Shown in pieces: positions 46,834 to 53,775 of a DNA stretch of 64,000 bases. Position 1 is the first letter of the stretch. Each line of letters starts with the position of its first letter. The position numbers were made by a program, and so were the translations under genes. The DNA is from Stenotrophomonas maltophilia (GTDB lineage Bacteria; Pseudomonadota; Gammaproteobacteria; Xanthomonadales; Xanthomonadaceae): contig NZ_CP015612.1 of the NCBI RefSeq assembly GCF_002138415.1, positions 3,636,001-3,700,000 on the forward strand, read 5' to 3'. Below the pieces are notes generated by a model that was not told the DNA's origin, did no database searches, and saw only the letters and a program-made list of their open reading frames with translations.

Positions 46834-47046
46834 TTACACTCCTTTCCAGGCGCGCGCGCCTTCGCACACGACGTCGCGTGGATCGTCGGCAGTTGTAGCG
46901 CGAATGCCCAGTCGCACTTCGACCTTCATACCCGGAGATTGCGCGCGCAGAAGCTCCGTTGGTTTCCCTCCGATGTGCACTGAAACCGCTGCAGCCGTCG
47001 AGCTGGATGCCAGCATCAGAAGAAAGAGTAAAAGCGAGCGCTTCAT
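46834..47046 (-). CDS. Small exported protein downstream of the RHS locus
   Basis: This is a 70-residue protein. ATG 47046 begins a clear signal peptide (MKRSLLLFLLMLASSSTAAA) followed by only ~48 residues (VHIGGKPTELLRAQSPGMKV...). No family is recognised. It follows the RHS-associated lipoprotein gene by 72 bp on the same strand, at similar lower GC. It may be a second immunity-like protein, an orphan module from an earlier toxin, or a truncated gene. Confidence 0.5.
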   Translation of the reverse strand: MKRSLLLFLLMLASSSTAAAVSVHIGGKPTELLRAQSPGMKVEVRLGIRATTADDPRDVVCEGARAWKGV

Positions 47047-47118
47047 TCGAGGCCCCACGGAAAGAACAGCCGGAGAATGGCCGGTGTCGGCTCTCAAACC
47101 TTTACAGATCCGCTTCCC

Positions 47119-47565
47119 TCAATCCAGATCACAATCCACTACCAGATCCCTGCGCGTCAGAACGGGAAGCTGCGCTTCAAGGTCAGCGCCCATGAACTGC
47201 ACGTAGATCAAGCCTTTCTGGTCTGCACGTTTGTTACCAAGCAGCACCCGGTCCTTACCCCTCGAATGCTCCGTGCCAACCAGCACGAATCCACGGGTCG
47301 GGCTCAGATCCCGATTCCATCGAACGCCATCGTAGGAAGGATGATTCCCAATATAGACTTCAACGTCCTTGCCAGCCAGCTTTAACAGTCCTTGTTCAAA
47401 ATCCAGTCCCGGCGCTTTCACGTGGTAGCTGTCACCGGCCTGAAGAAAAATGCACACGCCGAACTCGCGGCTCATCGGAGTGGGAACGTCGCTGCCACGA
47501 TGCGTACATGCACCGAGGCAGCCCACGCCGACCAAGAGAAGCAGCGTCGTCCTATTGGCTCGCAC
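47119..47565 (-). CDS. Small lipoprotein, candidate immunity protein for the RHS metalloprotease toxin
   Basis: This is a 148-residue lipoprotein whose signal peptide ends in GCLGAC, a good lipobox with Cys20. The mature part (REFGVCIFLQAGDSYHVKAP, DVEVYIGNHPSYDGVRW, GFVLVGTEHSRGKDR) shows no known family. Its start lies 14 bp inside the 3' end of the RHS toxin gene in another frame, so it is translationally coupled. Overlapping small genes directly after an RHS C-terminal toxin are normally its immunity protein. A lipoprotein would place immunity in the periplasm or envelope, consistent with a protease acting there. This function is inferred. Confidence 0.7.
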   Translation of the reverse strand: MRANRTTLLLLVGVGCLGACTHRGSDVPTPMSREFGVCIFLQAGDSYHVKAPGLDFEQGLLKLAGKDVEVYIGNHPSYDGVRWNRDLSPTRGFVLVGTEHSRGKDRVLLGNKRADQKGLIYVQFMGADLEAQLPVLTRRDLVVDCDLD

Positions 47566-50500
47566 AGCCGCACCCTCTCACGATGGTTCTGTTCTTCCAG
47601 GGATCCAGAACATCTTCCAAGTTCTTTCCGTCCGGTTTGGCACCATTGAGGTTGCTGCTCATGATGCCGGTCTCTCCTTCATTCACAAGGCCCAGCAAGT
47701 GCCCAGCCTCGTGAGGATAGAGGCTATCGGCGGACCATTGGCCGGGAACGAACCATTCGCCCGAGTTGAGATTGGGCGAATCGACATAGGAACGTCCGGT
47801 GCCCTGGGTCAACGTTATGTTGTTGACCGTAGCAGCAGGGCGGCTCATACGATACACCTGGACCCGCGTAACCACGTTGTAACTCCCAATCCGACCACTC
47901 CACGCCCTTTCGATGGATGACTTGATCATCGCGACATCGGCGGAAGAGCCTCCACTGAAGTTGATCGGAATGGAAATTCCGATGTTCTTCCCTTTCTGGC
48001 AAACGTAGCCGATCAGGCCAAGTGGATCGACAATCTCCACAGGATTGGAAGAAGCATAGACATACGTGTTTGGACCTCCCGCCTTCCCTATCGGATCACT
48101 TTGCAGATACCGACCGACATTTGCGTCGTAGTCGCGGAATCCGCTGTACCACAGGCCAGACTCAGAGTCGAAGTAATGCCCTGGCAAGCCAATGTTGATC
48201 CCTCCGATATCGTCCTGCGTGACGGTGCGCCCATATGCATAGTTGTACGCCTTCCACCGCACCTGCCCAACATCGTTGGCAGCGAACTCAGGCCGCCCCA
48301 GATGATCGGTTCTCACCGTGTAGACATCGGGCCCGCGCGTAACGGCAATGAGCTCGCCCATGAACCAGATATAGTTCGACCATCCCTGGCCTTCGGCACC
48401 ATCGGACATGATCTGGTTCTGGCCAAGATAGGCATAACTGATCCTGCTGCCATCGCCTCCCAGCTTTCCACTTCGCTGCCCGAGCCCATTGACAACATAC
48501 TGGGTATCGTTGCCATTGATTGTGGCCCCAACCATGCGATTGAATCCATCGTACCGGTAACTGCGCACATCGCCCTGCGAAGACTCGCCGGTCCGGTTTC
48601 CCATTGCGTCATGCGTGTACACCCGGTCAGCCTCGCCGGGCCGGTTGGAGAGATACCCCAGCAATCGGTTACTGCCCGTCTCGAAGGCGTATTGACGGGA
48701 AGCAGACTGGTCCGTGTGACTCAGCCAGTTTCCGTTCGCATCATAAGTCATGATGTGATCAAGACCTGAGCGCGACAACCGGGACAGCCGCCCATCAGGA
48801 TCATGCTCAATGACCTGCGTCAACTGCGGAGCGAGGCGGTCCTCGATTGATCGCATATGGCCCGCTGCATCGAACGTGTACGCCAGCTCCTGCAGCGCAG
48901 TGCCGTTCCCCGCAGGCACAGCAGACCGCCCCGACAGACGCCCGCCAAGGTCATACGTGTTTCTGTACGACATGCCATTACCAAGTGTCAGCTCGGCTAT
49001 GGCCCCGCTCGGAGTGTAACGAGCGCCCGCAACGATCGAGCGCGAGACACCCCCAACAATGACATTGAGACCCGCAAGGCGAGCTCCAGCGTAGGTGTAG
49101 TCGGCAACCACCCCGTCTGGATACGTAATGCCCGACAGTCGTCCACTCGCCTCATAACGGATTCCAAGAACGCTGCGTTGCATACCCTGCGCAGAGAATT
49201 CCTCAGAGCGCTCCGCCAACTGTCCATCCTGGGCATACTTGAAACTGACAACGGATTGAGGCGTTGAAGCCGTACACATGCGCCCGATTCCGTTCACGCA
49301 ACCATCGTAGGTGAAGTGGCGCTCGTCTCCTGCGGCCACCACGGAAAGGACTCGCCCAATCCCGTCGTACTGCATCGTGGCTTGCGCACCATCGGATCGC
49401 ACGTTTCCCATAACACGTGCCGGCGCAGCGTAACTATAAGTACTGGTTCCGGTGTCAGGACTAACCTTCAACCACGCCCGCCCGAATCCGTCACGCTCAT
49501 AGCGGGTCTGGAAACCACCTTGATCGACGATTCCAACAATACGATCAAGCCCATCGTAGTGGAAGTATTGGATAGATCCAGAAGCGGCCTGGGACGAGAC
49601 CACGCGCCCCAGCGCATCGTAGTTCGACCGCTGGACATTGCCTGCCCCATCGATCAGCTCGACCTGATTCCCGTTGCCATCGTACTTGAAATGCTGTGTC
49701 GTTCCGGCACCATCGCTGCGGGAAATCATTCGACCGAGCTCGTCGTAGCCATAGTTGACCCGAGAAAGCACTTCTCCCGGCCTGACACCCGCGATCGTGG
49801 AGACTGCAGCCTCAGCGATCGTCTCGCCTCGACTGACCAGCCACAGACGCATGCCCGCCGCAGTGACGTTGGTCAAAGCGATGCTGCCGCCAGGACCGCT
49901 CGCCAATTGAGTGCCTGCCCCACTTCCCGCGGCCGCCCAAAGCTCCGCACTACCTTGGGACACCAGCCATTGCACGGTTGCCGAACACGTCGATTGCCCC
50001 CAAGGTATGGTGCAGGGATCAGGGCTTGCCGTGATGCTGCCGACTGGTGCTGGTGGAACCTGGAAGGTGCCAGAGCCACCAATCAGACTGTTGGCTCCGC
50101 CGACAGGCGAAATGCCATGAACAAAGAGTCCCTTCCCGACATGATCACGACGCTGGGAATAAGTCAGCGGTATCGAGAACCGGTAACGTGAGCCTGATGC
50201 TCTGCACGCTGTGGCGACGGCCGCTTCACTCGCCTGATCGGCACGAACGCCCGCCAGGAATACGCCACCTTGACCCGCCGCTCCACCGGCGTAAAGGTGG
50301 ACGTCGATGGAATCGTCACGGCTCGTACTGCAGGCCCAGCCCTGCAGTGTGGTTCCATCACTGGAAAGTCCGTCAATGTTTCCCGTAACCAACGAGGGCG
50401 GTGCGCTTACCTTGACGGCGACATTGGTGGTGTAAACACCGAACCATTCGACGCCGTCCTGCACCATCTGCCACTGGAAGTTGTAGACACCTGGCGTGGT

Positions 50501-51463
50501 TGGCGCACGCACCTGCGCAATTATCACAGCCGTAGCACCCGGTCCGATATCACCAGGCAGAGACAGGCGATGAGTTCCCCACGCTGCGTTGTCGTTCAGG
50601 GATCCAAGCGCATAGCCGGCCGCCGAGGTCCATGTGGTGTTGCCTGCATTGTTCATCCGCAGGGAGACACTGTAGGTTTTCCCTGCCTCCATCTCGGCGG
50701 GCACATTCTGGTCGATGAAATGCGCCTTGTTGATGGGACCATTCACCCATAACGTCGCCAGGCCGGACGCTGCACCAAAACGCCCGGCACCGTTGCGTAT
50801 CATCTGCAGTTGGAATCCATACTCGCCGGGTGGCGGTGTGGTGACGTTGATATTGAAAGTAACCGTCTGGCCAGGTGCGACAGCGTGCGGAACGGGCACA
50901 TTGGAGAACGACCATGTACTTGCGTAGCTGTCGTGCGAACCTCCCAGCTGATATTCATAGCCTGCCGGCCATGTGGTGTTTCCGGTATTGCGCACCGTCG
51001 CGGTGAACGTATAGGGCGTGCGATGCTGCAGGGGACCAGGGATTGTCGAACCGACGAATTCAGCACCGTCGAAAGGTGCAGGTGGTGCATTGACCGTAAT
51101 CGGACCGACCGCCGATACCAATGATCGTCGAGTCTGGTCGCCGTCAGGAAGGTTGCGCACGGCATCCGCACGCAGTTCATAGTAATAGGTGCCCGGGCTG
51201 AGGCCGGCCTCCCGATAGACGCCACCCGCCTGGATGGTAACGACCGTGCCGTTCCGCAACAGACGCAGTCCATCAATGTATTCCGCCTTGGGACCGGTAG
51301 TCGTAACCCCCCAATTGACCTTCAGCTCGAACACCGCCGGCGCCTGATAGGTGCTGCCGGCCGGTGGGCCATCCAAGCGGATCCACCCCTCGGCGGCAGC
51401 ACTGCCGATCATGGCAAGGAGCAATAGAACGCATAGACCGATGTCCCGAATGAATCTACTCAT
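47552..51463 (-). CDS. RHS-repeat protein with Ig-like domains and C-terminal metalloprotease-like toxin domain
   Basis: This is a 1303-residue exported protein. The signal peptide (1-24) precedes two NBR1/Ig-like domains at about 131-240 and 246-352 (VRNTGNTTWPAGYEYQLG; MNNAGNTTWTSAAGYALG). A module around GWACS follows at 358-470, and another Ig-like domain at 474-558. YD/RHS repeats run from about 568, the RHS core ends at DPLGL about 1150, and a unique C-terminus spans 1151-1303. That C-terminus has HEAGHLLGLVNE (His1251, Glu1252, His1255) and, eight residues on, GIMSS like a metzincin Met-turn. The ATG overlaps the upstream RHS stop (ATGA) but has its own GGGGGA site. It is probably a secreted antagonistic toxin. 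Confidence 0.85.
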   Translation of the reverse strand: MSRFIRDIGLCVLLLLAMIGSAAAEGWIRLDGPPAGSTYQAPAVFELKVNWGVTTTGPKAEYIDGLRLLRNGTVVTIQAGGVYREAGLSPGTYYYELRADAVRNLPDGDQTRRSLVSAVGPITVNAPPAPFDGAEFVGSTIPGPLQHRTPYTFTATVRNTGNTTWPAGYEYQLGGSHDSYASTWSFSNVPVPHAVAPGQTVTFNINVTTPPPGEYGFQLQMIRNGAGRFGAASGLATLWVNGPINKAHFIDQNVPAEMEAGKTYSVSLRMNNAGNTTWTSAAGYALGSLNDNAAWGTHRLSLPGDIGPGATAVIIAQVRAPTTPGVYNFQWQMVQDGVEWFGVYTTNVAVKVSAPPSLVTGNIDGLSSDGTTLQGWACSTSRDDSIDVHLYAGGAAGQGGVFLAGVRADQASEAAVATACRASGSRYRFSIPLTYSQRRDHVGKGLFVHGISPVGGANSLIGGSGTFQVPPAPVGSITASPDPCTIPWGQSTCSATVQWLVSQGSAELWAAAGSGAGTQLASGPGGSIALTNVTAAGMRLWLVSRGETIAEAAVSTIAGVRPGEVLSRVNYGYDELGRMISRSDGAGTTQHFKYDGNGNQVELIDGAGNVQRSNYDALGRVVSSQAASGSIQYFHYDGLDRIVGIVDQGGFQTRYERDGFGRAWLKVSPDTGTSTYSYAAPARVMGNVRSDGAQATMQYDGIGRVLSVVAAGDERHFTYDGCVNGIGRMCTASTPQSVVSFKYAQDGQLAERSEEFSAQGMQRSVLGIRYEASGRLSGITYPDGVVADYTYAGARLAGLNVIVGGVSRSIVAGARYTPSGAIAELTLGNGMSYRNTYDLGGRLSGRSAVPAGNGTALQELAYTFDAAGHMRSIEDRLAPQLTQVIEHDPDGRLSRLSRSGLDHIMTYDANGNWLSHTDQSASRQYAFETGSNRLLGYLSNRPGEADRVYTHDAMGNRTGESSQGDVRSYRYDGFNRMVGATINGNDTQYVVNGLGQRSGKLGGDGSRISYAYLGQNQIMSDGAEGQGWSNYIWFMGELIAVTRGPDVYTVRTDHLGRPEFAANDVGQVRWKAYNYAYGRTVTQDDIGGINIGLPGHYFDSESGLWYSGFRDYDANVGRYLQSDPIGKAGGPNTYVYASSNPVEIVDPLGLIGYVCQKGKNIGISIPINFSGGSSADVAMIKSSIERAWSGRIGSYNVVTRVQVYRMSRPAATVNNITLTQGTGRSYVDSPNLNSGEWFVPGQWSADSLYPHEAGHLLGLVNEGETGIMSSNLNGAKPDGKNLEDVLDPWKNRTIVRGCGCASQ

Positions 51464-53580
51464 GGCTGAGTCCCCCGGCCTGGATCGGCAAATACACGCT
51501 GCACTGTTTCAGTGACCGGAAGCGAGAACGCGTTGTACTCATATCGCGTTTCAGCAAAGCTCCCGTTCGGCTCAGGCATCGAGGTAGACAGCAGCCGACC
51601 AGCCAGGTCATAGAGGTGGGAAATCCTGACACCATCCGGCCCGGTCACGGACGCGAGCTTGCCAAAGGCGTCGTATTCATAGTGGGTCGTGCGGACACCA
51701 CTGGACAACAGCAGACGAACCTCGGAAGGTCGTCCACGCGAGTCGTAAACGAAATCCGTACGCACACCGTTCACGTCAATCGAGTAGCCCGGATAGCCGT
51801 AACCCGTGTACCCGCCCATGACCACAGCGTGCCCGAGGCTGTTCTCGATCCGCACCAGGTCACCCAGCTCCGAGTAGGTGGACGTCACCGCATCACCACT
51901 ACCCGCTGCCGGCCCGTCCTCGACCATCCTGCTGACAAGGCCATTGGGGTGCAGCTGATAGCTGAAGGTAGTCGTCTGCACTTCGCCCTGCGCATGACCG
52001 GCAACCAGGCTCTTCTCCGAGCGGGACACCAGCCGATTATTTGCGTCGTAGGCATAGCGGGTTTCAAGCACCCCCTGCAGCGTTTCCGCCACGACACGGT
52101 TGCCCTGCTCATCCCACTCGAATGTCGTCACCCGCGCAATGGGCGTCCCGCTTGCTTCTTCACGGCGAAGAAGATGGCCATGGGTGTCGTACTGATAGCG
52201 GGTCAGGTTTCCTTCGAAATCCGAAGTGAGCGATGTATTCCCGTTTTCGTCGTAGTGCGTTTCGCTATAGCCTGCGGCACAGTTCGCCGAAGGAAGGCCT
52301 TCGATGGCGATCAGTCTCCTGTCCTTGAAACGATAGCGGGCGACCTTTCCAAGCGGGTTGGTCTCCACGGTAACGCTCTCTCCATTGGCTCCCGGCTCAT
52401 ACGCGAAGCCAAACCGCTCGACGCCCCCCGCATGCGCCGTCGAAGTCGCACGATTCTTATCGTCGTAGGTGAACATCGAGTAGCGGCGGCCATTGATCGA
52501 CTTGCCGGTGAGCAGCGGCAGCCCGTAGGCCTGCCCCAGCTCCTTGTACATGTAGTGATACTTGACCGTGGTGGCAGGAGTGCCGTTGTAGGTAACCGAC
52601 TCCAGGAACCCGTACACGTCCTGCGTGTATCCGTATTCGATGGTATTTCCCTGCGGATCCCGCACCCTGATCACACGCGGATCAACGCCAGTCTGTGCAT
52701 TCTTCTGGATCTAGGTGAACTCAATATAGCGGCCATTGCTATGGGTGACGCGCTGCAGCTGGGAACCTTCAGGACCTCCGTAACTCAAGGTCCAGCGCAC
52801 GCCGTTGGCGTTCCGGATCTCCACCATCTTGGTGCCTTCGTAGGTCTCCGTAGTCAGATCGGGGCTCAGGTAGATCCACTTTCCGCCCGCAACTGACTTC
52901 AACTGCCCGCCCTGCTGTGCACCATCCTCCCGGTAAACACCGTCGCCTCCTCGCTTGAACACCAGATAACGACCATCGGGGCGGCGCATGCGCGCCTCGT
53001 TCGAGTCCGTGTAGACGACCAGCTGCCGATCAAGGTTGCTGTACCACGTGTCGAAAATGTTGAAGCGATCCATCACAGCCGAGTTGAACGTGCGCTCGAG
53101 CGTCAATGGCATCTCGCCACCGCCAGTGAAATCCAGTTCGGTTTCCACTTTCGTACCGGTGCGAAGAACCACCGGGTTGCCACTCTTCGGGCACTCGTCG
53201 GCGGCATCCCTCCCCGACTGGTCCGGCTCTCCTTTACTGGGTTCGACGAAGTCATCCCATTGATTTGGCCCAGGGAAAAGATTCGAAGGAACGCCCCAGA
53301 GCGCCATGAACCCATCCAGTCGCCCAGGCACCACACCATCGGCAACAGCATCCACGCGTGGAAGGTTGGTGATACCAGGTCCTGCGCCCGCGCCGGCACC
53401 ACCCGATCCCGGCTGATTCTGGATGATTCGCCCGTCAGCCTCAGCAGACGCCAAGCCGACAATAACGCTCAACAGTGCAGCGGGAAAAAGATGAAGTTCA
53501 CGACACATCCACCCAGTAGCGGCCTCCTGGATGCGTCGAGTGGGCAGGAGGCCGGACATCAAGCGGAATGCCGAATCCAT
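51460..53580 (-). pseudogene. Exported RHS/YD-repeat protein interrupted by an in-frame amber codon
   Basis: From ATG 53580, preceded by AGGGA, the frame encodes an N-terminal signal-like segment (FPAALLSVIVGLASAEA). A Gly-rich stretch and a DUF6531-type RHS N-terminal module follow (NPVVLRTGTKVETELDF at about 135), then YD repeats. TAG at 52711-52713 stops it after 289 residues (...GRYIEFT). The same frame resumes at once (IQKNAQTGVDPRVIRVRDPQ) and runs on for 416 codons of YD repeats to 51460. A Trp (TGG) to amber change is the simplest cause. The distal part has only a weak GTG start at 52674. No RHS core or toxin domain is present in it. Confidence 0.8.
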
Positions 53581-53775
53581 ACGTATTCCCTCGCATGGAT
53601 TCGCGCACGCGCCATCCATGACGTCGTCAACACGTTGATACTGCGATTGATCCGCCAGGTACTGGCGGCTCCCCTGGGTAGGACGTTGCGCCCCAAGCCC
53701 CAGCCGCCTAGATACGCCCGGAACCGCCCCTTGTCAACAATCGCTGCATCTCCGCACCGACAGCATGGCCCGCCG

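Follow-up and report, generated by a model that had tools for sequence, protein, structure and literature searches.

The 64,000-nucleotide window of Stenotrophomonas maltophilia NZ_CP015612.1 analysed here, from a genome of a single contig of 4,668,743 bases, carries on its minus strand a gene for a 1303-residue Rhs protein (47552-51463) with a predicted metzincin-like toxin tail, and directly after it a gene for a putative immunity lipoprotein of 148 residues (47119-47565). Positions are those of the window and residue numbers those of the 1303-residue protein. Along the minus strand the gene order is an interrupted DUF6531 Rhs gene, the Rhs gene, the lipoprotein gene and a truncated gene for a small exported protein.

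The Rhs protein comprises a signal peptide, NBR1-type immunoglobulin repeats, RHS/YD repeats, an Rhs-associated core and the tail, with domain matches to RHS_repeat (1.3e-23), N_BRCA1_IG (4e-14) and Rhs_assc_core (1.1e-19); it thus has both the YD/RHS repeats and the core that define Rhs polymorphic toxins. Its Sec-type signal peptide at about residues 1-25 (51389-51463) is a hydrophobic stretch that was read from the sequence without a predictor. The core (TIGR03696, residues 1075-1150, 48014-48241) ends in DPLGL at residues 1146-1150, and the tail follows as residues 1151-1303 (47555-48013). The preliminary description, namely a 1303-codon open reading frame (ORF), a 153-residue C-terminus behind DPLGL and an overlapping lipoprotein ORF, was borne out at these positions, with 14 bp (47552-47565) shared by the two genes. 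In the lipoprotein, Cys16 or Cys20 would be lipidated, and Cys38 and Cys145 are conserved.

Predicted fold and relatives of the tail

The tail contains the motif HEAGHLLGL, with HEAGH at residues 1251-1255 followed by Asn1261 and Glu1262, and a Met-turn, GIMSS, at residues 1266-1270 (Met1268), which begins four residues past the last letter of HEAGHLLGLVNE and not eight, as first described. From this motif a zinc-protease helix plus Met-turn had been proposed, and a confident model lacking a zinc site had been named as evidence to the contrary. The AlphaFold model of the tail, a confident prediction (pLDDT 86), aligns to metzincins, so that computation assigns the tail to the metzincin-type fold class and the proposal is retained; zinc binding and proteolysis are presumed. 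A structure prediction of the tail alone and a profile search of residues 1151-1303 had both been suggested: the former gave this metzincin-like fold, and the latter returned no match to any Pfam or NCBIfam model.

Among 395 genomes of the bacterial family, 17 were found to carry the tail family, in 18 copies. In a 19-row alignment of the family (A3; L032 and L044 partial, members down to 27% identity with the window tail), W88, H102, E103 and H106 are invariant (alignment numbering, H102 being residue 1251), which makes a chance motif unlikely, and the IM of the Met-turn is kept in most relatives. None of the 12 families listed for the 19 members is one of the Tox-MPTase1-5 families, for some of which Pfam models presumably exist.

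Lipoprotein genes beside the tails

If the lipoprotein were the immunity partner, homologous tails should have a comparable neighbour, and tails without a conserved one had been named as grounds for rejecting the pairing. A small ORF lies directly downstream of all 18 tails, its first possible start falling in a range from 71 bp ahead of the tail stop codon to 27 bp beyond it. For comparison, 116 Rhs core matches were collected in the same 17 genomes; omission of ten partial or below-cut-off matches left 106, and removal of two incomplete ones and of 17 that precede tails of the family itself (the eighteenth, L032, is without a core match) left 87 control tails, three of which had no downstream ORF and were scored as lacking a lipobox. 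A relaxed lipobox rule was devised after the strict one had missed lipoprotein-like neighbours, and each of the two was used on tail neighbours and controls alike. A lipobox was found in 13 of the 18 neighbours versus 10 of the 87 controls by the strict rule (Fisher P = 4e-7) and in 16/18 versus 12/87 by the relaxed rule (P = 1e-9), and a hydrophobic N-terminus, a crude measure, in 17/18 versus 43/87 (P = 4e-4), all P values serving as a guide only because the sequences are related and were drawn from 17 genomes. Thus, in gene position and association, the pairing holds across the family, and the comparison supports the window pair well as a toxin-immunity candidate in which the lipoprotein gene probably protects the producer.

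By phmmer, the 18 neighbours are not one family but several groups without detectable similarity to each other: a window-type group (window, L023, L024, L026, L032 and L044, with L028 joined via L026, L032 and L044), three further groups (L025 and L027; L033, L036 and L037; L035, L038 and L039) and the singletons L029, L030, L031 and L034. The association may also reach beyond the tail family: HExxH occurs in 12 of the 87 control tails, and by the relaxed rule a lipoprotein neighbour accompanies 7 of these 12 versus 5 of the 75 without HExxH (P = 8e-5, with the same reservation). The 12 tails are of several kinds (L081, L091, L097, L106, L118, L136, L144, L149, L151, L153, L159 and L165). Such an association of HExxH tails with lipoprotein genes would offer a simple predictive rule for a toxin's site of action.

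Immunity genes were also detected without a toxin. The window-type immunity profile matched 9 of the 395 genomes, five of them with the tail and four (G367, G245, G146 and G128) outside the 17 tail genomes, the matches in G146 and G128 being doubtful. In G367, an immunity gene 87% identical to that of the window lies between a gene for a product of 187 residues and the small exported-protein gene, the same two genes that border the window locus. It is preceded by some 18 bp similar to the tail end, and the 12 kb examined contain no Rhs match. This arrangement is what a loss of the toxin with retention of immunity would leave. In G245, the immunity gene stands apart from any Rhs-protein match in the 12 kb examined.

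The small exported-protein gene itself, 3′ of the immunity gene, is truncated to 70 codons in the window (46834-47046); it is a relative of an exported protein of 156-161 residues, is longer in L040 and L176, and probably lies outside the toxin pair. The span first proposed, 46834-51463, accordingly contains the pair, its start reflecting this additional short ORF.

A two-gene shell and its probable export

The partner Rhs gene immediately upstream (51460-53619, minus strand) is broken into a front piece with DUF6531 (52711-53619), which ends at an in-frame TAG at 52711-52713, and a rear piece with RHS repeats (51460-52674), whose stop codon overlaps the start of the 1303-residue Rhs gene by 4 bp. 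In the two closest loci, L040 of Stenotrophomonas sp. RAC2 (tail 99% identical) and L041 of an uncultured Stenotrophomonas (98%), the partner gene is an unbroken frame of 719 residues. The window locus belongs to a split-shell kind, its own first gene being interrupted.

By searching the first 560 residues of the 1303-residue protein against 91 genomes of the genus, shell matches were obtained in 13, i.e. the genome itself, two that are 99% identical, and ten more, nine of which were fetched (the weakest, G794, was left out). The fetched shells are 34-48% identical to the window protein in the aligned parts, and all nine bear other tails, the likeness stopping at residues 1149-1164; tails have thus been exchanged on the same kind of shell. 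Two consecutive YD-repeat ORFs, each hydrophobic at its N-terminus, were seen in six of the nine (L188-L193) and in L040, L041 and L166, the rear half of L166 having no clear cleavage site; in L194-L196 a single such ORF was found by script. The relatives L025, L030 and L033 hold DUF6531, repeats and core in a single chain and start with stretches that, judged by eye, resemble signal peptides.

At two of these loci the tail has a lipoprotein-like neighbour. In L166, the second Rhs locus of the window's own genome (C1:15500-26500) and likewise split into two genes, the tail at the end (L166:6325-8871) matches DUF6973 weakly (E = 2.5e-4, below cut-off), and an ORF of 111 residues that looks like a lipoprotein comes next. 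The Rhs gene of L192 (G788) ends in a tail with HTHP...D, likewise followed by a lipoprotein-like ORF; we take this tail to resemble a JAB-type domain, which invites comparison with the pairing of Tox-JAB-1 with Imm65.

The split shell is reminiscent of TcB and TcC. A broader scheme, in which two half shells of Stenotrophomonas are exported separately by Sec, assemble outside the inner membrane and bear envelope-acting metzincins among their tails, while across the bacterial family tail chemistry sets the address of the immunity protein and each of several unrelated zincin-tail families has a lipid-anchored immunity of its own, is put forward tentatively and would more probably fail than hold. 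Two-gene shells raise a testable question on how Rhs cages assemble.

As to the route, Sec export is read from the signal peptide, and passage through the type II secretion system (T2SS) is probable by analogy with the RHS-type antibacterial Bcn-A and from the presence of two GspD secretins above cut-off in the genome. An effector of the VgrG2b (Tpe-Tpi) type, delivered by a type VI secretion system (T6SS), does not fit, since the genome gave no match to the sheath protein VipB, the E. coli control being positive, and no VgrG or PAAR model was among the Pfam matches of the Rhs proteins.

Interpretation and known systems

We consider it likely that the pair is a Sec-exported Rhs toxin whose metzincin tail acts in the envelope, with lipid-anchored immunity and probable T2SS secretion. 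Sec would carry the shell protein across the inner membrane, and its exit would probably be through the T2SS; cleavage behind DPLGL, as in known Rhs cores, would free the 153-residue metzincin-type zinc protease, which would act on envelope proteins of rivals, most likely in the periplasm; and in the producer the lipid-anchored protein, facing the periplasm, would bind and block it. An extracellular or periplasmic protease toxin with lipid-anchored immunity had been proposed at the outset, and the tail model, the 18 neighbour ORFs and their lipoboxes are in keeping with it.

Several observations weigh against this reading. The tail matches no family model, the neighbours fall into unrelated groups, the kinship of the sequences weakens the statistics, and hydrophobic N-termini are frequent among the control neighbours as well. 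Two neighbours are exceptions, that of L030 seeming to be anchored in the membrane by a helix and that of L031 lacking any export signal in the frame that was read. The T2SS analogy is incomplete because Bcn-A is described as having no signal sequence (PMC7259588). Finally, the partner gene is interrupted by its TAG, and in the otherwise present HExxHxxG motif the window tail has Asn at position 11.

The last two points, together with the truncated downstream gene, favour a rival explanation, namely that the metzincin fold has been kept while catalysis was lost, so that the locus is broken and its tail is in decay or serves for binding only. The doubt over Asn first raised from the sequence stands: by our reading of the 19 rows, position 11 is Asp in eight, His in four and Asn in one (the window), with another spacing in six. 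However, the Asn-Glu pair is retained in the near copies P0005, L040 and L041, of which L040 and L041 have the unbroken partner gene; Asn recurs in P0020 and Glu stands there in P0013, and partner decay in the window genome alone says nothing about the lineage. Compared with L041, the window tail differs by 5 synonymous and 3 non-synonymous substitutions (ratio of non-synonymous to synonymous rates, dN/dS, 0.17; 0.29 for L040 versus L041), the immunity gene by 9 and 2 (0.07) and the shell by 68 and 14 (0.066), and these low values, from few changes, suggest constraint. Loss of catalysis is thus rather unlikely, with perhaps a modest chance of being right. Glu1262 as the metal holder is a guess, and the copy in the window genome may itself be impaired, because its partner gene is interrupted and its third metal ligand unusual.

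Far less probable is that the tail is a processing protease for the shell or its partner, silenced during export by the lipoprotein as chaperone or inhibitor; any protease that is exported, for whatever end, would require an inhibitor in the periplasm of the cell that makes it, but the related shells bear other tails in all nine fetched genomes and the immunity gene remains where Rhs genes are absent. Equally improbable is a tail directed at eukaryotic hosts or predators: metzincins commonly act on animal proteins and the Foldseek matches of the model include such enzymes, but the lipoprotein pairing is consistent against the control, and solitary immunity genes suggest protection against the same toxin among bacteria.

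The proposed envelope toxin with lipid-anchored immunity adds to the exported Rhs tails a metzincin-like family for which the searched libraries contain no dedicated model, and supplies several lipoprotein immunity families for testing. No published description of the family was found in the titles or abstract openings of the papers listed; the nearest systems are compared here. The tail model shares the HExxHxxGxx motif, the Met-turn and the fold with snapalysin and other metzincins (PDB 1c7k, 5zjk and 2w12), which are distant in sequence and are not Rhs tails. Zincin-like tails behind RHS repeats, as in the window, were described in 2012 as Tox-MPTase1-5, for which the table in that paper gives no immunity; Imm65, called there the only lipoprotein immunity of the collection, belongs to Tox-JAB-1 (PMC3482391). 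The VgrG2b C-terminal metallopeptidase of Pseudomonas aeruginosa, paired with PA0261, also has an HExxH motif and, with its homologues, is an established case of a protease whose toxicity is confined to the periplasm; the immunity protein is exported and, for some homologues, a predicted or demonstrated lipoprotein (PMC6899460); its carrier is a T6SS VgrG spike, and no sequence link to the window tail was seen. Tse2 of Stenotrophomonas rhizophila, from the same genus and set beside the window tail by its description, is a predicted effector that its authors compared with the metzincin karilysin, and its immunity protein has a signal peptide and a likeness to potempin A (PMC13340143), but it is a PAAR fusion delivered by a T6SS. 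Bcn-A of Xanthomonas perforans, also matched by description, is found in the supernatant, loses activity in a mutant of the T2SS gene xpsD, needs ORF2 and ORF4, and is followed by an immunity gene of 145 residues; its milk-agar protease test was negative, and its shell is a one-gene shell, in contrast to the two-gene shell with signal peptide of the window (PMC7259588). The tail family differs from these known systems in its carrier and in its likely route of export.
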